Shown here piece by piece: positions 3,420 to 43,000 of a DNA stretch of 43,000 nt (within the stretch, counting starts at the first letter, position 1; each line of letters opens with the position of its first letter). The translations under genes and the position numbers were made by a program. The stretch is from a virus. The DNA lies in IMG/VR virus record IMGVR_UViG_3300023440_000009, positions 1 to 43,000 of that record; one strand, written 5' to 3'. The notes beneath the pieces are model-generated. The model ran no database searches and was not told the origin of the DNA. It was given only the letters and a program-made list of their open reading frames with translations.

Positions 3420-3824
3420 ATGGGATGGTTCACAGTTATTAAAGAAGTGCTCGGTCTTGGGGGAACACTCATCAGTGGATGGGCAAAAAGAAAGCAACTG
3501 GAAGCAGAAACAAAAGTAGAAATCACTCGTATGAAAGCGGAGGCTGTCATTGAACAGGCTAAAACTGCCCAACAAGCTGAGATCGAGTGGGACAAGCAGC
3601 AAGCAAAGAATGCACAGTCTTCTTGGAAGGATGAGTATTGGACAATTGTATTGTCTATTCCCGCAATCTTGTGCTTTATTCCCGGACTTTCTGAATATGT
3701 CGCACAAGGTTTTGATGCGTTGAAACACACACCCGAGTGGTACCAGTATGCTCTTCTTGTCGCTATTGCTGCAGCTTTTGGTGTGAGACAACTTATCAAC
3801 TACAAAAAGGGAGTTGGTAAATGA
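3420..3824 (+). CDS. Putative holin (3TM/gene-transfer-release type)
   Basis: I place the start at the ATG at 3420, after an AGGTGG ribosome site and just past the previous stop; an upstream in-frame GTG at 3411 is possible. The 134-residue protein begins with a short hydrophobic stretch (WFTVIKEVLGLGGTLISGWA), continues with a charged Glu/Lys/Ala helix, and then has two membrane segments around WTIVLSIPAILCFIP and YALLVAIAAAFGV. This resembles the Holin_3TMs family as I know it, including the WxDEYW stretch before the second span. It would sit in the inner membrane and release the amidase encoded on the opposite strand at 5950-6387. The amidase is not adjacent on the same transcript, which is unusual for a lysis cassette. 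Confidence 0.65.
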   Translation: MGWFTVIKEVLGLGGTLISGWAKRKQLEAETKVEITRMKAEAVIEQAKTAQQAEIEWDKQQAKNAQSSWKDEYWTIVLSIPAILCFIPGLSEYVAQGFDALKHTPEWYQYALLVAIAAAFGVRQLINYKKGVGK

Positions 3825-5942: not shown

Positions 5943-5964
5943 AGCGGGGCTATTTCGCCCCGCT
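5943..5964. terminator. Hairpin terminator at the meeting point of both operons
   Basis: AGCGGGGC (5943-5950), loop TATTTC, GCCCCGCT (5957-5964). Read on the minus strand the stem is followed by TTTTCTTTT, a good intrinsic terminator for the leftward operon. On the plus strand the run of T is missing, so it is weaker there. The amidase stop codon (5950-5952) lies at the stem-loop boundary. Confidence 0.85.
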
Positions 5965-6387
5965 CAATCCCATATTATCATATTTATAAAACTCAGCAAC
6001 ATTAAAGCATGGACAAGCTTTCTTGCGGGTGTACTCATTGTGCCCCGCAATTTTTTTGATCGTGCCGTAGGTATCTAGGAGAGAGCTGACCAAATCATCA
6101 AGAGCGCGCATTTGAAACTGCGTGTAGTCAAACTTCTCTTCCCAACCGCCCACAAGACATATACCAATACTGTCACTATTTTGTCCAAGACAATGTGCAC
6201 CGATATATTCCAGCGGACGTCCTTTCTCTACCGTCCCATCTCTCCGAATAACATAGTGATATCCGATGTCATCAAACCCCCGTTCGAGGTGCCATTGACG
6301 AATTGTATCTGCCCCAATGTCTAAATGGGTCGGACTATAGGATGCATGAATAATGATCTGCGCAATCGGCTTTGTACGCTTATTCAT
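5950..6387 (-). CDS. N-acetylmuramoyl-L-alanine amidase (endolysin, T7 lysozyme type)
   Basis: This 145-residue enzyme cleaves the bond between N-acetylmuramic acid and L-alanine in peptidoglycan. Family signatures are visible: IIIHASYSPT with the zinc ligand His14, GYHYVIRRDGTVEKGRP with Tyr43, and GHNEYTRKKACPCF with His116, Lys123 and Cys125, corresponding to the His17, Tyr46, His122, Lys128 and Cys130 set of T7 lysozyme with a one-residue shift. Length is close to the 150 residues of T7 lysozyme. There is no signal peptide, so a holin is needed. It is the last gene of the leftward operon, overlaps the upstream gene by eight bases, and ends inside the terminator hairpin. T7 lysozyme also inhibits T7 RNA polymerase, but no such polymerase is seen here. 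Confidence 0.92.
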   Translation of the reverse strand: MNKRTKPIAQIIIHASYSPTHLDIGADTIRQWHLERGFDDIGYHYVIRRDGTVEKGRPLEYIGAHCLGQNSDSIGICLVGGWEEKFDYTQFQMRALDDLVSSLLDTYGTIKKIAGHNEYTRKKACPCFNVAEFYKYDNMGLSGAK

Positions 6388-6649: not shown

Positions 6650-6949
6650 TTATTTGATGATGTAGATTACTCTAGTACTAAAAAAATCAAGTCCGTAATT
6701 AGGGTATCTTCCGATACCTAGCTGTGCCCCATTAGAGAAGTGGTTCCATTCAGTTTGGAGCACAATATTTTCTGTCAACTGGGTTCTATTACCGACGCTA
6801 ATGTGGAATTGTTCGTGTCCAGTTAGGTGTGTCTTCGGGATATTAGCTACGTAGGCTGGCCCAATGCCTACTTCTAAGCAACCAGAAAGACAAAGGGCCA
6901 GCGCAACAATCGCAACTTTAAATCCCGCAGACACCCCCTTTGCAAACAT
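6650..6949 (-). CDS. Predicted outer-membrane lipoprotein with PagL-like lipid A deacylase signature
   Basis: From the ATG at 6949 the 99-residue protein has a short signal peptide (MFAKGVSAGFKVAIVALALC) and a lipobox LSGC with the lipidated cysteine at residue 24. The mature part contains EWNHFSNGAQLG and RYPNYGLDF. The H-x-S-N motif (His70, Ser72) followed by an N-x-G resembles the active-site region of PagL-type lipid A 3-O-deacylases, which also use a Glu I cannot place with certainty. The usual family is longer (about 150-185 residues) and not lipidated, so this would be a short derivative. The N-terminus overlaps the 3' end of nrdJ by 32 bases in another frame. An alternative is a small Rz1-like lipoprotein. 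Upstream starts at 6967 and 6976 are possible. Confidence 0.55.
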   Translation of the reverse strand: MFAKGVSAGFKVAIVALALCLSGCLEVGIGPAYVANIPKTHLTGHEQFHISVGNRTQLTENIVLQTEWNHFSNGAQLGIGRYPNYGLDFFSTRVIYIIK

Positions 6950-7780
6950 TTTCTGCGGACTCTTCATAAACAGCATTCTGTTTTTTTACGGCCTCATCAT
7001 AAGGAACAGCAACAAGAGGCTGCCCACCTCGAGCACCATTAGGATATACAGTAATACCACGGAGTCTTTCGCAATAGTTTGCAAGCGTATAAGCCAATTG
7101 CTTAGCTGTGTCTTCATTATTCTCCTCCGTACCCCACTCTGGGAGATTGATTGTTGAACTAATCCCCATATCTACATACTGCTGAATGTCTGCCTGAAAT
7201 GCGATGCGCTTTTCAGGAGTTGCTGCAAGAGACATCGCTGTCTCAATGCTATCCGGAGAGAGTCCGTGTTCTTTAATAATACGCTCTGCAGTCGGGTCGA
7301 TTACGAATTGATATTTCCATCTGTTTCCGTCAAGGAATCTTCGCTTGTAGGCGACTGTATAGATTGGCTCAATTCCTGTAGTCGTTGACGCAAGGATTCC
7401 GATTGTACCCGCAGGCGCAACAGCTCTGTATTTGCGTGGGCGATTGATGTAGAATCGGTCACAATGCTCATTTGCCGCTGCTTCAGACTCTTCGGCGTAA
7501 ACTCTAAGCCATTCATGAAGCTCTGGTACGACTTCGTATCCATAACCACGCTGAAGCAACCATTCGTGGAGTCCCATGAGGCCGAGGCCGATCTTCCTGT
7601 TGCGCTCTCGTACCACCCGAACTTTCTCGTAGGGGAGGTCTCCACGCAGAGTGCCACACACAAGAAACTTAGCAGCGAGATGTACCACGTCTCTGAGCTC
7701 ATCAATTGTGGAAATATTAGCCACATTGATAGAACCAAGATTGCAAACGTCACTATCGTCCTCAGAAGTAAATTCCGTAC
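6918..7780 (-). CDS. nrdJ: Class II (B12-dependent) ribonucleotide reductase, exon 2
   Basis: This is the 3' exon of nrdJ. Joining 9351-8571 to 7780-6918 keeps the frame and gives about 547 residues. The exon starts with GT, which completes the split codon for the catalytic cysteine: exon 1 ends RNA-T and exon 2 adds GT-ACG-GAA, restoring N-A-C-T-E, the NxCxE active-site motif. Twelve residues later lies the redox cysteine in DVCNLGSIN. The motif PAGTIGILASTTTGIEP (residues about 370-385) and the C-terminal pair VCKGGVCGI, which re-reduces the active site, are typical of the family. The enzyme makes deoxyribonucleotides using adenosylcobalamin. Its 3' end overlaps the lipoprotein gene. A free-standing start at MANISTID would lack the catalytic cysteine. 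Confidence 0.9.
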
Positions 7781-8570
7781 CAAACGTTCATATGTCCTGT
7801 CATTTCTGAACAGGCCCCGTGTCACCACGGGTATCGGACTATCTCACCACCCTTTTCAGGGGCCGAACACACGACTAAGGCAGCTTATATACGAAGCTCG
7901 GTTTGACGAAAGGCTGAACACCACGTTTAAATTTCTCGTAATCCTTAGCCCGTAGTGTGAGAAACCATCTGTGGTAGTGCCTATGAATATTCCACTCAAG
8001 GTCCAGCTTATCTCTAAGTGCCTTCTTTAGTAAGAGTTGATCTCCATACGAAAGCCGTTTTAAATTGAGTTTCGCTGCGGGGGTGGCGTTACAACGTCTG
8101 TCTACATTACACGAACCATCGTCCATAAACAGAATAGCGAGCATCTCCCAATCAAGAAGTTTTAGGTAATGGGGATCTACAGACTTATAATTGCCGACAT
8201 ATAGTCTGTTACGCACTCGCGTATACATTGGATGTGTTCGTGTTAACGTACACAAAACTGGTTGCCTATTCTCTCGATGATCATTGGTCTCATAGACACG
8301 AACATGTGTAAGGTTTGAGAGAATATCCGCTCGCCACCCAATATAGTCTTCGTGTTTCGCAAGTTGGTTACACACGAAACGACAGTGCTTTCCGGAGTAA
8401 TAAACTCCACCATCTCCCATCACAAAGGCACTTACATATTTCGTCAATTCACGCTTAGTCATAGTCTCTACACCTCCCATAACGGGTTGGCACGGGATTG
8501 GGTCAGTGACCTTTCCCCGTTTTTCGTTCGGTTATTCGACGCTGATTACTCAGCGAAGGCGCATACATTT
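7781..8570 (-). ncRNA. Group I self-splicing intron in nrdJ
   Basis: A 790-base insertion interrupts the catalytic cysteine codon. Exon 1 ends with U at 8571 and the intron ends with G at 7781, as the class requires. P1: exon GCGU pairs with intron GCGC (intron positions 9-12) with U.G at the splice site, extended beyond one mismatch by GAA/UUC. P10: exon 2 GUAC pairs with intron GUAU (positions 5-8). P7: GACUAU (8466-8461) pairs with AUAGUC (7842-7837) in a context like the T4 phage introns. P9: CCCGUG, GUGA tetraloop, CACGGG (7831-7816), followed by a second hairpin CCUGU/ACAGG. The endonuclease gene lies between the two P7 strands, in the P8 loop region. Confidence 0.9.
7875..8462 (-). CDS. 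LAGLIDADG homing endonuclease inside the nrdJ intron
   Basis: The 195-residue protein has two LAGLIDADG-type helices, KYVSAFVMGDGGVYY near residue 10 and EMLAILFMDDGSCN near residue 115, each ending in the acidic residue that binds the metal. Two motifs in one chain indicate a monomeric enzyme that would cut intronless nrdJ alleles and promote copying of the intron. I start it at 8462, where ATG follows GGAGG by 10 bases; an in-frame ATG at 8480 lacks a ribosome site. The start codon lies on the 5' strand of the intron's P7 helix, so translation initiation and intron folding compete. The reading frame is intact, so the element may still be mobile. Confidence 0.88.
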   Translation of the reverse strand: MTKRELTKYVSAFVMGDGGVYYSGKHCRFVCNQLAKHEDYIGWRADILSNLTHVRVYETNDHRENRQPVLCTLTRTHPMYTRVRNRLYVGNYKSVDPHYLKLLDWEMLAILFMDDGSCNVDRRCNATPAAKLNLKRLSYGDQLLLKKALRDKLDLEWNIHRHYHRWFLTLRAKDYEKFKRGVQPFVKPSFVYKLP

Positions 8571-9351
8571 ACGCATTCCGGCAAGTCTCATATTCATTCT
8601 CAAAGAAATTGTAACAGTGTCCAGGTTCTCCTGTTTCACACATTTTTCTAACAGACTCAAACCAGAGTTCTGGAAGCTCGTGTTCATACAGGCAGCATTC
8701 AACAAATTCAGTATCCCAGTTGATACTAATATTTGTCATATCCAAAGGAGCGGGAAAATTAAAATCCTGCTCCTTTAGTTTTTTAATTTCTAGGGACCAA
8801 TCCTTGATTTTTATAAAGTCCCAAATGTCCCCATGCTGCCAATTCAAGGAAGCAAAAATTGCAGAACGGCGTGAACCCCCTTGACGTACATTGCGCCCAA
8901 TTTCATTGATGCTGCACATAAGAGGGATGGGACCAGAAGCCACCCCGCCAGTTCGTTTAAGAACGCGGCCACTTTCCCGAAGAATTGAGTAATCAACACC
9001 GATACCACCTCCAGACATCAGGCAATCAGAGGCACGTTTACAAAGATTGCCCCACTCTTCTCGAGTATCTTCCTCGGCCTTTAGCGCGAAGCAGTTATTA
9101 TAAAACTTTGCGTCGCGTCCGGCATAGTAGAGATACCGTCCACCAGGAATAAATTTCATTTGGATAATATACTGAACCAGTTGGTCTTGATCATCCTTGC
9201 TCATGAGTGGTGGCAACGTACCCCAACGTGTGCCGCAGACATCTTCGACAAGTCTACGGGCAAGAATGGGCCAGGTATCCTCTGGCCCTTGCGCATATTT
9301 AAGACGGAATACATTTTCTGCGAATGTCGTTCTAAATTGAAACTTACTCAA
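8571..9351 (-). CDS. nrdJ: Class II (B12-dependent) ribonucleotide reductase, exon 1
   Basis: This is the 5' exon (260 codons plus one base). Visible motifs are FIPGGRYLYYAGRD, NNCFAL with the redox cysteine at residue 87, the SGGGIGVDYS substrate-loop region, and RQGGSRRSAIFASL, all expected for NrdJ. It ends ETCRNA plus T, directly before the catalytic cysteine. Without splicing, translation meets a TAA two bases into the intron. No N-terminal ATP-cone is present and no second subunit gene is seen, consistent with a short monomeric class II enzyme. The start is unusual: no ATG is available, and I favour the TTG at 9351, six bases after GGGGG; TTG at 9357 is the alternative. It feeds the deoxynucleotide pool with the nearby MazG and dATP/dGTP diphosphohydrolase genes. 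Confidence 0.9.
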
Positions 9352-9365
9352 CTCCAACCCCCAAC

Positions 9366-18728: not shown

Positions 18729-19556
18729 CTAACAATGAAGCAATTTCTGTATACACATTCCAGAGACAGCTTTTGGATCTTCATCGGTGTACAGAACCAC
18801 TGTACGCACACCCATTCCCCGAAGCTTGTTCGCAAACTTCATCGCCTCCTTATATTTATTCGCATCCAACCAAATATAGGTACACTGGTATTTCCTCGCA
18901 ATCAAGTAAAAATTATCGGGCATGTGTGAGCCAAGCAATGCGAGAGAATCAACAAATCTACCAGTTTTGATTGCTGAGACAATATCTTCAACAACAACCA
19001 ATTTATTACTTCCACGAAAAACCCTAAAATAGGGAGCCCGACCAACACCTTCATATACAGTATACCACTTAATTGTCGATTTGTCAAGATCATCTACCCA
19101 TCTTCCCTGATACGCAAGTAGTTTCGTTTTTGTTTTATTTTTAATTGGAAAGATAAGTCTGTTTAACGCCTCACTCCACCAAATGTCGTATTCTGATATT
19201 TCCTGTGGCGTAATCTGATATTGACTAAGCCAATTAATAGCTTTTGTTGGAAGATCTTTTGTAACATCTGGTGGCAGTTTTGTAATAATTTCTTGTTGCT
19301 TCCCCTTGTCATCCGCCACTGGCTGATGTGTCAGCCCGTTCCACTGCTCTATAATTTGACTTGGCCCCAGATCGGTCCATCGATGTCTGCCAGAGAACTT
19401 CTGGCAATGATGGCAGTGAAACACAAAGCCATTGTTCACCCGCAAAACGACAAGAGAATTTCGATGATCTCCACATTCAGAATGTGTGAATCGTTTTTTT
19501 GTACCGACGGGCTCGTTAAATCGGTACTTTTCAGGCAGAATCATCTGCTTCCTCAT
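18729..19556 (-). CDS. DNA primase (zinc-binding and TOPRIM domains)
   Basis: The 275-residue protein starts at ATG 19556, six bases after GGAGG. The N-terminal 60 residues form a zinc-binding domain (HSECGDH, then FVFHCHHCQKF) like that of T7 gp4, for template recognition. Residues 130-190 cover the RNA-polymerase N-terminal part (ISEYDIWWSEALNRLIFPI, YQGRWVDD). A TOPRIM domain follows: KLVVVEDIVSAIKTGR with the catalytic Glu, TYIWLDANKYKEA and VVLYTDEDPKA with the acidic pair. It makes RNA primers for the split family-A polymerase and is encoded next to, but not fused with, the helicase. Confidence 0.87.
   Translation of the reverse strand: MRKQMILPEKYRFNEPVGTKKRFTHSECGDHRNSLVVLRVNNGFVFHCHHCQKFSGRHRWTDLGPSQIIEQWNGLTHQPVADDKGKQQEIITKLPPDVTKDLPTKAINWLSQYQITPQEISEYDIWWSEALNRLIFPIKNKTKTKLLAYQGRWVDDLDKSTIKWYTVYEGVGRAPYFRVFRGSNKLVVVEDIVSAIKTGRFVDSLALLGSHMPDNFYLIARKYQCTYIWLDANKYKEAMKFANKLRGMGVRTVVLYTDEDPKAVSGMCIQKLLHC
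19059..19087 (-). promoter_or_regulatory. Near-consensus sigma70 promoter inside primase gene
   Basis: Minus strand TTGACA (19087-19082), 17 bases, TATACT (19064-19059). It lies within the coding region for the primase (LDKSTIKWYTVYEG). It could add transcription to the end of primase, the 74-residue gene and the helicase unit. Confidence 0.5.
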
Positions 19557-27696: not shown

Positions 27697-27723
27697 CCTA
27701 TGCTCTTTATTATGGACGGGATC
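27697..27723. repeat. Inverted repeat 1, left arm
   Basis: CCTATGCTCTTT, three bases, ATGGACGGGATC. The reverse complement occurs at 28234-28260 with 12 + 12 identical bases. The arms enclose the gene 27744-28208. Confidence 0.9.
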
Positions 27724-27743: not shown

Positions 27744-28208
27744 TTATTTGGCTCCCTCGACGATCAGTTCCCGAAGTTCCCGCCAAAGCCGCACTGCTTT
27801 GGCCTGCCTTCTCTTCGGGAGAGTATCGATAAATCGGGTCAGCCCCTCCTCGATCTTGGAAAGACTGACAACCTTGCCGGAACGCTTACTAGTAGACTTC
27901 TTCTTGGAAGTCTCTTTCCGCCCGGTGTCCCGCAACCATTGGTCATAGGCGCGGGACCGGCGCGCCAACTCTGCTAGCTTGCCGCCTTCTTCCTGCATCT
28001 TACGGAGACCCAAGGGCTTGCCTTTGTCATCGACCGGCCATTGACCGATAGAAACCAAAGCTTCAACGAGCTTAGCCCGGTCCGTAACCCCGGCATTGTA
28101 CAATGCCTCGTTCCGGGTGGCTACCGTGGCCAGACTCACAGCCACGCTGTCCCATGCCTGGAGCCAACTCTTGATAAGAGTGCTAACGCTGATCTTCTTC
28201 TTTGCCAT
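27744..28208 (-). CDS. Lys/Arg-rich protein bracketed by inverted repeats (154 aa)
   Basis: The start ATG 28208 follows AAAGGATC by eight bases; an in-frame upstream ATG lies inside the inverted repeat. The product begins MAKKKISVSTLIKSWLQAWD, has a helical centre (VATRNEALYNAGVTDRAKLV), a basic stretch (TGRKETSKKKSTSKRSGK at about 108-125) and a basic C-terminal helix (KRRQAKAVRLWRELRELIV). It looks like a nucleic-acid-binding protein. The coding DNA is noticeably richer in G+C than surrounding genes, suggesting recent arrival. The gene is flanked by arms of a 27-base inverted repeat and has its own terminator. Confidence 0.78.
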   Translation of the reverse strand: MAKKKISVSTLIKSWLQAWDSVAVSLATVATRNEALYNAGVTDRAKLVEALVSIGQWPVDDKGKPLGLRKMQEEGGKLAELARRSRAYDQWLRDTGRKETSKKKSTSKRSGKVVSLSKIEEGLTRFIDTLPKRRQAKAVRLWRELRELIVEGAK

Positions 28209-28233: not shown

Positions 28234-28260
28234 GATCCCGTCCATAGCAAAGAGCATAGG
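28234..28260. repeat. Inverted repeat 1, right arm
   Basis: GATCCCGTCCAT, three bases, AAAGAGCATAGG, complementary to 27697-27723. It lies 25 bases before the start codon of the enclosed gene, in its leader. Two bases separate it from inverted repeat 2. Confidence 0.9.
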
Positions 28261-28262
28261 CT

Positions 28263-28290
28263 GTTGACGGCTCTTGACGAGGCACCTTGC
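28263..28290. repeat. Inverted repeat 2, left arm
   Basis: GTTGACGGCTCTT, five bases, GGCACCTTGC. The reverse complement occurs at 28516-28543 with 13 + 10 identical bases. The arms enclose the gene 28299-28499. Confidence 0.9.
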
Positions 28291-28298
28291 GGTTAGAG

Positions 28299-28499
28299 TT
28301 AATAATTAATCGCCTTTATGTAATCTGCATGACTGCGAAAGGCTACATGAGCAAGCGTCCCCTGCTCATCCTCATCATGACGGACGATTACAGGGACGTT
28401 TGTTTCGGGCGTTCTTTGCGGACCCTCAGGCAGGCCCGCAAGCCAAAAATCCCGGCTCGTTGTCGCGTCAAATTCAACAATACGCCAGTAAAGGCTCAT
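28299..28499 (-). CDS. Small protein bracketed by inverted repeats (66 aa)
   Basis: The start ATG 28499 follows GAGGTG. The 66-residue product begins MSLYWRIVEFDATTSRDFWL and ends HVAFRSHADYIKAINY; it looks like a small alpha-beta protein. It is the most upstream gene of the leftward arm, a place where phages often encode early host-takeover proteins. The ribosome site sits in a possible hairpin GCACCT...AGGTGC (28527-28501), which could limit translation. The whole gene lies between arms of a 28-base inverted repeat. Confidence 0.72.
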   Translation of the reverse strand: MSLYWRIVEFDATTSRDFWLAGLPEGPQRTPETNVPVIVRHDEDEQGTLAHVAFRSHADYIKAINY

Positions 28500-28515
28500 A
28501 TGCACCTCACTTTCT

Positions 28516-28543
28516 GCAAGGTGCCCCCTTAAGAGCCGTCAAC
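28516..28543. repeat. Inverted repeat 2, right arm
   Basis: GCAAGGTGCC, five bases, AAGAGCCGTCAAC, complementary to 28263-28290. It lies 16 bases before the start codon of the enclosed gene. Confidence 0.9.
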
Positions 28544-29010
28544 TGGGTATTCCCAGGTATGTCAAAGATCATCGCCCAGCGCTACAGAATTCTGCAACGC
28601 CTCGCGCGCCCTATTCTATATGCAGACCCTGTGCCAACATCAGATATGGTACAAATGTAGTATAATTATCATATAATTAAGCATAATTAGACCTAATTGT
28701 AACCAATATCTGGTACAGAAAAAGACGGAAATCTGTCACTAGCACAAGTAAAACTGTTAAAAATCTGTCAATACAGTTATATCAAGCAGTTACACTGGAA
28801 ATGTAATTATAATTATGCTTAATTATGGTCCTAAAGCCCGTGAACGATGACAAAAATCTGTCAAAATGGCACGCCAGTTGCGCCAATATCTTTGCATTCA
28901 TATATATGGAAAATCATATGTTTGTATGCAAGATGTGTGCCAGAGCAAATACGCAAAAACCCTAGCGTTGCAGGAATCTGGAACGGGAATTCGGACAGGG
29001 AAAAGGCAAA
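28544..29010. promoter_or_regulatory. Non-coding regulatory region with inverted repeat and direct repeats
   Basis: No gene is supported here. It holds a 16-base inverted repeat TAATTAAGCATAATTA (28674-28689) and TAATTATGCTTAATTA (28810-28825); three direct copies of AAATCTGTCA (28729, 28761, 28854), two of which read TTGACAGATTTT on the minus strand and so resemble -35 boxes, though no good -10 box follows at 17 bases; CCAATATCT twice (28703, 28882); and two imperfect palindrome copies (28581-28598, 28967-28984). Most of it is AT-rich. It may carry leftward early promoters or operator sites. Confidence 0.55.
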
Positions 29011-29037
29011 AGAAAACCCGGCGACTAGGGCCGGGTT
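29005..29037 (-). terminator. Intrinsic terminator after the 31-aa peptide gene
   Basis: Minus strand AACCCGG, nine-base loop, CCGGGTT (29037-29015), followed by TTCTTTTGCC. It closes a single-gene unit with the promoter at 29193-29221. Confidence 0.85.
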
Positions 29038-29066
29038 AACGAAGGATTGGTGATAGATTGTAGGGA

Positions 29067-29162
29067 TTAGAAGAAGATCAGCTTTGCAAAGAGCAGGAAC
29101 GGGCCAGCAACGCCGATACCCATCAGTCCCAGAATGATACCATCAACGATACGTCCGATCAT
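29067..29162 (-). CDS. 31-residue single-span membrane peptide with its own promoter
   Basis: The product is 31 residues, beginning MIGRIVDGIILGLMGIGVAG and ending PFLLFAKLIFF: almost entirely hydrophobic with one Arg, one Asp and one Lys, so a single membrane helix. ATG 29162 follows GGAGG by five bases, a strong site. A promoter with perfect -35 and 17-bp spacer lies 31 bases upstream and a terminator follows, making a complete one-gene unit between the origin-like repeats and the leftward operon. Possible roles are superinfection exclusion, membrane depolarisation or inhibition of a host membrane protein. It is too short for family assignment. Confidence 0.78.
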   Translation of the reverse strand: MIGRIVDGIILGLMGIGVAGPFLLFAKLIFF

Positions 29163-29192
29163 AATCGCCTCCATTTGTTAGGGTTCGGGTTC
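29163..29192 (-). promoter_or_regulatory. Short leader of the 31-aa peptide gene
   Basis: About 25 bases lie between the predicted transcription start (near 29186) and the ATG. They include the strong GGAGG ribosome site and a repeated GAACCC/GAACCCT sequence. No stable hairpin is seen. Confidence 0.5.
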
Positions 29193-29221
29193 CCTATATC
29201 AGGGTTTTGTGTCCCTGTCAA
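29193..29221 (-). promoter_or_regulatory. Sigma70 promoter for the 31-aa peptide gene
   Basis: Minus strand TTGACA (29221-29216), 17 bases, TATAGG (29198-29193). It reads toward the peptide gene and, if its terminator leaks, toward the leftward operon. Confidence 0.82.
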
Positions 29222-29322
29222 GCAAAAAAATCTTCTCCGGGCTCTTTCATGCATGCCCAGGTATGTGCGGGCACACATACGCACGCATATATTGCATTCT
29301 TCGTGCCAAGTCTCTTTAATCC

Positions 29323-29397
29323 TGTGGATATCTTGTTGATAGCTTGTGCATAGCTTGTGGATAGGCTGTTGGCATCCTGTGGACAGGCTGTGGATAA
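29323..29397. other. Putative replication origin: seven DnaA-box-like 9-mers at 11-bp period
   Basis: Nine-mers start at 29323, 29334, 29345, 29356, 29367, 29378 and 29389: TGTGGATAT, TGTTGATAG, TGTGCATAG, TGTGGATAG, TGTTGGCAT, TGTGGACAG, TGTGGATAA. The last is the exact complement of the DnaA box TTATCCACA and most others differ at one to three positions. All have the same orientation and exact 11-base spacing, one helical turn. An AT-rich stretch (29460-29515) follows. No gene is supported in 29222-29482. Confidence 0.78.
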
Positions 29398-29482: not shown

Positions 29483-29511
29483 TTGACTTTTCTTTAAAAA
29501 TATGGTATAAT
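29483..29511 (+). promoter_or_regulatory. Sigma70 promoter of the rightward (structural) operon
   Basis: TTGACT (29483-29488), 17 bases, TATAAT (29506-29511). It is the only strong promoter found on the plus strand and reads into the terminase and virion genes. Confidence 0.9.
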
Positions 29512-29617: not shown

Positions 29618-30085
29618 TTGAAAAAGGATCATAAAACTATGCGTGCGCAAACTAAAGAAGAAACTAAATCTTCCCGCAAAGCGGGAAAACCTAAAGGTTC
29701 TCGCAATAAAAAGACTCTTGAATTGTTCGCACTTCTGGATAAGGGATACGAACCTGAGCATGCCTTTAAGCTGGTTTACGGAAAACTACCCGCGTACAGG
29801 ACACAGAAGCATCACCTACAGGAGTATCGCAAGCATGTTGCTGATCGTCCTGAGATCGTTGAGGCGGCGCATCAGGCGTTGGAAGACGCCTTGAAAATGA
29901 AGCCGATTAAACGGAAAGGCGAAGTTATCATGCCTAACTATAACACCAGGATGCAGGCAATCAAGATGGTACTGGATCGAGTTGATCCGGTGGTAAACAT
30001 CAATCATAATTTGAATGTGACGAAACATCTGGCTCCTGTTGATTTGGAGAAATATAAAACTGTTGATGCCGAGGTAGTAGAATGA
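29618..30085 (+). CDS. Putative terminase small subunit
   Basis: The 155-residue protein has a basic N-terminus (KSSRKAGKPKGSRNKKTLELF) that leads into a likely helix-turn-helix (LLDKGYEPEHAFKLVYGKLP), a helical centre and a C-terminal assembly part (NYNTRMQAIKMVLDRVDPVV). DNA-binding helix plus oligomerisation region at the head of the structural operon, before the large terminase, fits the small subunit that recognises the packaging site. The start is probably TTG 29618, nine bases after GGGGGAGG; ATG 29639 with a weaker AAGGAT site is the alternative. The TTG lies in a small hairpin ATCCTTTT/AAAAGGAT. It overlaps the next gene by four bases. Confidence 0.68.
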   Translation: MKKDHKTMRAQTKEETKSSRKAGKPKGSRNKKTLELFALLDKGYEPEHAFKLVYGKLPAYRTQKHHLQEYRKHVADRPEIVEAAHQALEDALKMKPIKRKGEVIMPNYNTRMQAIKMVLDRVDPVVNINHNLNVTKHLAPVDLEKYKTVDAEVVE

Positions 30086-42138: not shown

Positions 42139-43000
42139 ATGGGCTGGCTCAGTAAACGGCTGAAAAGCGTTGGAAATTTTTTCAAACATCCCGGCAGAAC
42201 AATTAAAGAAGCCTATAAAGACGGGATGGACACTATCCGGGATCTCCCCAAAGATACCTGGGATACTCTCGACAAAAACTGGCATGACATTGTAGTTGAT
42301 CCTATTTTCTCTGGAAAAGAGTCCCGTTTTTGGAAAACTCTTGCCGCTGTCGTCGGAACAGTTGCAGGAGGATCACTGTTATCTGGCGGGGGTAGTGCTT
42401 CTGGAGGAGCTACTGCAGCTATCGGAGGAGGCATGGGCGGAATTGGAGATATCTTTTCTGGACTTAAAAACATTTTCTCTGGTAATTTCGGGGAAGGCCT
42501 CTCTGGTGTTCTCGAGGGTGTGGGGAATATCGGACAGAATTTTCTTGGGGGTTCCGGAGGATCCGGCAGTGGCCTGAATCTTGGAAATCTTGGTCCTCTG
42601 CTTGGGTGGGGTCTCGCACAAAACACAAAAAATGTTCCCCAACTTGATAATCTGTATTCTTTGTTGAACCCCATAAATCAGAGAAGCGTTGTTGGGTCTG
42701 ACATTGCTACAACGGCACTTCTTGGAAATCTTGCAAACACTCCCTATGCAAATAATGTTGGGCAAGGTCTTCTCGGACTCGCGTTTAGTGATCCCCTTGC
42801 TGGAGACGTGACTACTCAATTTTTCCAAGACCAGGCGTATGAAAACGCGCTTCGCGCCGCAAGAGGAACTGGTGCTGCCAGAAGTTCTTATATGACAAAA
42901 TTCCTCGCTGATCAAGCTAACCAAGTTGCGTATGATAGATATCGGGAAAAGATGAACGCACTTGGAAACCTGTTCAGATATGGGAATGCACTCGGACAAA
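42139..43000 (+). CDS. Internal virion protein, N-terminal part (continues at base 1)
   Basis: Starts at ATG 42139 after AGGAG. The frame is open to the window end and continues at bases 128-318 after the 127-base overlap, giving 350 residues. The N-terminus is basic and amphipathic (MGWLSKRLKSVGNFFKHPGR), followed by a Trp/Asp-rich part (DTWDTLDKNWHDIVVD), a Gly/Ser/Ala-rich hydrophobic centre (VGTVAGGSLLSGGGSASGGA) and a helical end. An amphipathic start plus a glycine-zipper-like centre suggests a protein that enters the host membrane during DNA ejection. The role is inferred from composition and position. Confidence 0.8.
   Translation, partial: MGWLSKRLKSVGNFFKHPGRTIKEAYKDGMDTIRDLPKDTWDTLDKNWHDIVVDPIFSGKESRFWKTLAAVVGTVAGGSLLSGGGSASGGATAAIGGGMGGIGDIFSGLKNIFSGNFGEGLSGVLEGVGNIGQNFLGGSGGSGSGLNLGNLGPLLGWGLAQNTKNVPQLDNLYSLLNPINQRSVVGSDIATTALLGNLANTPYANNVGQGLLGLAFSDPLAGDVTTQFFQDQAYENALRAARGTGAARSSYMTKFLADQANQVAYDRYREKMNALGNLFRYGNALGQ
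42874..43000. repeat. Terminal overlap, copy 2 (circular assembly join)
   Basis: Identical to 1-127 over all 127 bases. See the first copy. Confidence 0.93.

Follow-up and report, generated by a model that had tools for sequence, protein, structure and literature searches.

A 31-codon open reading frame (ORF) on the minus strand of an environmental phage genome, at 29162-29067, is probably a real gene, and it sits within a compact transcription unit equipped with its own promoter and terminator. The window, meaning the whole stretch of DNA that was analysed, is 43,000 bases long and constitutes a virus record of its own (IMGVR_UViG_3300023440_000009). The explanation favoured here, held tentatively, is that a real monocistronic gene encodes a single-pass inner-membrane peptide, which would act early on a host membrane protein in the course of host takeover or exclusion. 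Phage microproteins are already a known kind. If translated, this one would be another case of a tiny phage membrane peptide that has been given its own transcription unit instead of a position in an operon.

Genomic context

The first 127 bases of the window are repeated exactly at its end (1-127 = 42874-43000), which would be expected if the phage genome is essentially complete and either circular or terminally repeated. An assembler using a 127-base word on a circular molecule may also have produced the repeat. Among the encoded proteins are a terminase, a portal, an SU10-type capsid protein, a ribonucleotide reductase, a DNA polymerase A, a DnaB-like helicase and a phiEco32-type ligase. 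Replication genes lie in the leftward block, and the rightward block starts at about 29.6 kb. The peptide unit occupies the divergence point of the two blocks, a region with the following features:

29319-29397, plus strand: six DnaA-box-like 9-mers of the TGTGGATAA type in 11-bp phase, about 100 bp upstream of the peptide promoter
29483-29511, plus strand: divergent rightward promoter, TTGACT-17-TATAAT

The DnaA-box-like array, which lies upstream of the rightward promoter, suggests a phage origin dependent on host DnaA. Cumulative GC skew reaches its minimum at 28-29 kb, and together with the array this indicates that the unit probably adjoins a replication origin. A similar array occurs at 469-511 of the relative L092, just upstream of a small-terminase-like ORF, as in the window; the two-box pattern was found in one of the 15 records searched.

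The closest relative found with this region is IMGVR_UViG_3300044712_000158 (G001), which resembles the window in overall gene order and in its terminase (71%), capsid (68%) and ribonucleotide reductase (69%). By eye, it has its own divergent promoter pair at the corresponding place, and its rightward promoter closely resembles that of the window. No tiny membrane gene lies directly behind its leftward promoter. The control region of this relative, at 3500-3700, contains a long run of short repeats that code for, or resemble, a low-complexity protein. Searches with the genes at 27744-28205 and 29633-30082 yielded no further relatives. Assignment of a host through relatives of the terminase failed, as their bins disagree (Geobacteraceae, Kaiserbacteria and Spirochaetales contigs).

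The transcription unit

The compact unit of the original prediction is present on the minus strand between 29221 and 29005, with each element where it had been placed:

29193-29221, minus strand: promoter, with TTGACA at 29221-29216, a 17-nt spacer and an extended -10, TGA-TATAGG, at 29198-29193
29168-29172, minus strand: Shine-Dalgarno sequence GGAGG, 5 nt 5' of the ATG at 29162
29067-29162, minus strand: 31-codon ORF, MIGRIVDGIILGLMGIGVAGPFLLFAKLIFF, with one hydrophobic helix; its stop codon TAA ends at 29067
29005-29037, minus strand: intrinsic terminator with an 8-bp stem and a T-rich tail

The promoter matches the consensus at 10 of 12 bases and carries the additional TG. Its absence from a strict scan is due to a -10 element that lacks the conserved last T, an imperfection counted against the favoured explanation. 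By eye, the leftward promoters at 19087, 18500 and 14818 are nearer to consensus, which indicates that the genome commonly uses promoters of host type. Roughly 25 nt of leader separate the predicted start of the transcript from the gene. A second in-frame ATG at 29174 would give 35 aa, but it overlaps the Shine-Dalgarno sequence, and the 31-aa form is thus the likely product. The terminator stem (29037-29015) has eight pairs, six of them GC, followed by TTTTCTTTT, and folds at -15 kcal/mol (z -3.68). When the unit was compared with phage records by BLAST, only the terminator end (query 202 or 204 to 241) was matched among the best 20 of 149 records, with a best E of 0.06; these matches are read as a common terminator shape. 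The earlier view that ordinary gene finders would miss the gene is doubtful: its 96 nt just exceed the minimum gene length of Prodigal, which is 90 nt.

Coding signal and predicted peptide

The complete unit occurs once in the real window and in none of 400 whole-window or 6000 intergenic dinucleotide-preserving shuffles. The simpler combination of a Shine-Dalgarno sequence and a hydrophobic ORF averaged 0.075 occurrences in each whole-window shuffle and 0.0033 in each intergenic one. Since the thresholds were set after the unit had been seen, these figures serve as a guide and not as a strict p-value. Codon usage, referenced to 22 window genes, gave the ORF a log-likelihood of 4.95 in frame and of -18.93 and 0.78 in the other frames. 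None of 512 off-frame chunks reached the score of the ORF, and 22% of 256 in-frame chunks scored at or below it. Synonymous choice taken by itself was mildly informative, the value of the ORF being reached by 3.9% of the 512 off-frame chunks and by 2106 of 20000 random synonymous versions. Five decoy ORFs that overlap the gene or lie close by were scored as well: three came out clearly negative and two near zero.

AlphaFold, run without an alignment, models a single helix over residues 2-34 of the 35-residue form (pLDDT 93.8). One side of this helix bears small residues (G8, G12, G15 and A19); shuffling the helix produces such a face in 7% of cases, so its role in packing is only suggestive. 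If translated, the ORF, with its predicted helix and coding signals, would belong to the phage single-pass membrane microproteins (fewer than 50 codons, one membrane helix). The predicted self-contained unit for a membrane-type 31-residue peptide is therefore supported by its elements, the terminator fold, the shuffles, the helix model and codon usage, and the gene is probably monocistronic.

In the favoured explanation, host sigma-70 RNA polymerase would transcribe the gene soon after phage entry, since the promoter is of host type and lies where the two blocks diverge, next to the probable origin. The peptide would then enter the inner membrane through its one helix, and the G8-G12-G15-A19 face may pack on another helix, most likely that of a host membrane protein. 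Such packing could alter the host protein in favour of the phage, with takeover as one result and exclusion of a second phage as another possible outcome. The early location proposed originally is plausible, as no gene precedes this one in the leftward, replication-gene block, and expression may accordingly be early. T4 Imm and lambda Kil are small membrane proteins of superinfection exclusion and host takeover that are expected early. By analogy, the peptide would share their small size and expected timing, although Imm and Kil are longer.

Phage small proteins form a recognised class (PMC11323111, excerpted text), and the peptide resembles them in being short, in lying in an intergenic gap and in having no known homologue. 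The small proteins in that excerpt are soluble regulators, with no 31-residue membrane example, whereas the peptide is predicted to be of membrane type. Its own transcription unit would make clean deletion and testing easy, and the target, once found, would reveal a control point in the host membrane.

Homologues and small ORFs of relatives

A search for the peptide among relatives, suggested in the original prediction as a check, found no homologue (six-frame scan of 110 loci and the records of L002-L004). In the six-frame scan of the 110 other loci, the best score was 33, compared with 26-42 for 20 shuffled peptides, and within its own record the peptide matched itself alone. No homologue was found in phage records, plasmids, the PDB (phmmer) or PHROGs, or with two degenerate DNA patterns of the gene run over viral contigs. 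This absence of homologues is counted against the favoured explanation. For an orphan such as this, the main lesson is that phage control regions can accommodate microprotein genes that stand alone.

Hydrophobic ORFs of 20-55 codons that are preceded by a Shine-Dalgarno sequence and lie clear of large ORFs numbered seven in 111 sequences, the window's own included; ORFs overlapping larger ones had been dropped beforehand, and L026 is a chance pattern match in a non-relative. Four of these ORFs, each from a distant relative (L024 of G001, L043, L063 and L083), are read leftward, as the peptide gene is, and count in support of the favoured explanation. A further small hydrophobic ORF, in L017, is on the opposite (rightward) strand. 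None of these five resembles the peptide in sequence. By eye, the complete unit is present in none of the four leftward cases, and the small ORFs of L024, L043 and L083 lie inside operons.

Alternative explanations

The rivals rank, in falling order, as an origin-linked transcript, a type I-like toxin, a non-coding element, a lysis-related peptide and a subunit mimic. An unlikely alternative, placed first among them, is that the short leftward transcript, from 29186 to about 29010, helps to open or prime the DnaA-box-type origin, with the peptide being secondary. The position of the promoter about 100 bp from the array and at the GC-skew minimum would suit this role, as would the comparable setting of the L092 array, but transcription heads away from the array, and a good Shine-Dalgarno sequence, a hydrophobic ORF and coding-like codon usage are unexpected of a pure primer. 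Moreover, the 468 bp to the left of the L092 array contain no comparable unit, and the nearest relative, G001, gave no match to the two-box pattern. Rather less probable is a membrane-depolarising toxin in the style of TisB, Ldr or Fst, either checked by an antisense RNA or damaging to the host. Small size, one helix and a short unit with its own promoter and terminator are typical of type I toxins, and all are predicted here; on sequence features, the peptide has the short hydrophobic ORF on its own predicted transcript. In the minimum-energy RNA fold, the 5' end also base-pairs with the terminator, yet the z of this fold, -1.36, is ordinary. TisB, 29 aa long (PMC11449926), is matched by the peptide in size, single helix and short predicted transcript of its own. 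The locus gave no sign of an antisense RNA: on the opposite strand of 28678-29300, no promoter exceeded 8 of 12 bases, weak ones being possible, and nothing in Rfam reached the gathering score. Weak Rfam matches, such as RF02278 at E=0.25, were rejected. That the ORF arose by chance, or that the transcript is a non-coding small RNA, is improbable. The missing homologues (110 loci, viral contigs and plasmids) are in keeping with such an origin, which is opposed by the shuffle statistics and codon usage.

A role in lysis, as a holin, antiholin or pinholin, is very unlikely. A small membrane helix with a small-residue face would be compatible with it, and the phage does have an amidase endolysin (5950-6387); however, the endolysin maps 23 kb away from the peptide gene and the peptide matches no PHROGs lysis family, and it was not classed as a holin on these two grounds. 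Known holins are longer. The sole family resemblance of the peptide is to PetG, a subunit of the cytochrome b6f complex, and it raises the highly improbable idea that the peptide imitates, or serves as a decoy for, a small subunit of a host respiratory or photosynthetic complex. Residues 1-22 align with positions 1-22 of the NCBIfam profile PRK00665.1 (E=0.014), Pfam PetG (PF02529) is matched at E=0.16, and 11 of 26 residues are identical to one PetG in N-terminal register. A resemblance as good arose in 3 of 5000 shuffles by identity and in 3 of 20000 by HMM score; it thus beats shuffles yet is weak in view of the number of families considered, many short membrane families having been tested implicitly. 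The scores fall far under the curated cut-offs (15.6 against 60 bits for PRK00665.1, 12.3 against 23.7 bits for PF02529). PetG chains in the PDB carry a conserved C-terminal tail after the helix, whereas the peptide ends in AKLIFF, and for want of the cut-off and the tail it was not accepted as a PetG. In addition, phmmer against the PDB yields no PetG, and there is no sign of a cyanobacterial host. Least probable of all is a specific version in which the stand-alone gene, beside a DnaA-dependent origin, supplies a copy of a PetG-like N-terminal helix that would enter a host cytochrome complex and retune energy metabolism. The favoured explanation remains the early-acting membrane peptide.

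Dispersed palindromes and other features

An 18-bp palindrome, GTTGCAGAWWTCTGCAAC, has 10 sites in the window at up to 3 mismatches, all of them in the leftward half:

12844, 16771, 18084, 23304, 25126, 26489, 27357, 27610, 28581 and 28967: GTTGCAGAWWTCTGCAAC sites
28967-28984, no strand assigned: the last of these sites, a degenerate copy just downstream of the peptide terminator

In G001 (loci L024, L002 and L023), 10 sites of TTGCCTAGAWWTCTAGGCAA were found at the same tolerance of up to 3 mismatches. The palindromes of the two phages have the core AGAWWTCT in common and differ in their arms; a DNA-binding protein or regulator and its sites have possibly changed together between them. When nearer relatives were sought through the dispersed palindrome, nine contigs with one site each were obtained, and these were taken as chance. 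Dispersed palindromes are known from Cluster O mycobacteriophages (PMC4351075). Palindromes that differ in their arms may merit more attention than the peptide gene.

The ribonucleotide reductase region (6918-9357) reads as two ORFs that are separated by a third, for a LAGLIDADG endonuclease (7875-8480), and this split is likely intron- or intein-like. Inverted repeats at 28256-28290 and 28516-28550 (83% complementary) surround the leftward ORF 28299-28505, and a second pair at 27697-27723 and 28234-28260 (93% complementary) surrounds the neighbouring leftward ORF 27744-28205; both pairs could be cassette ends.
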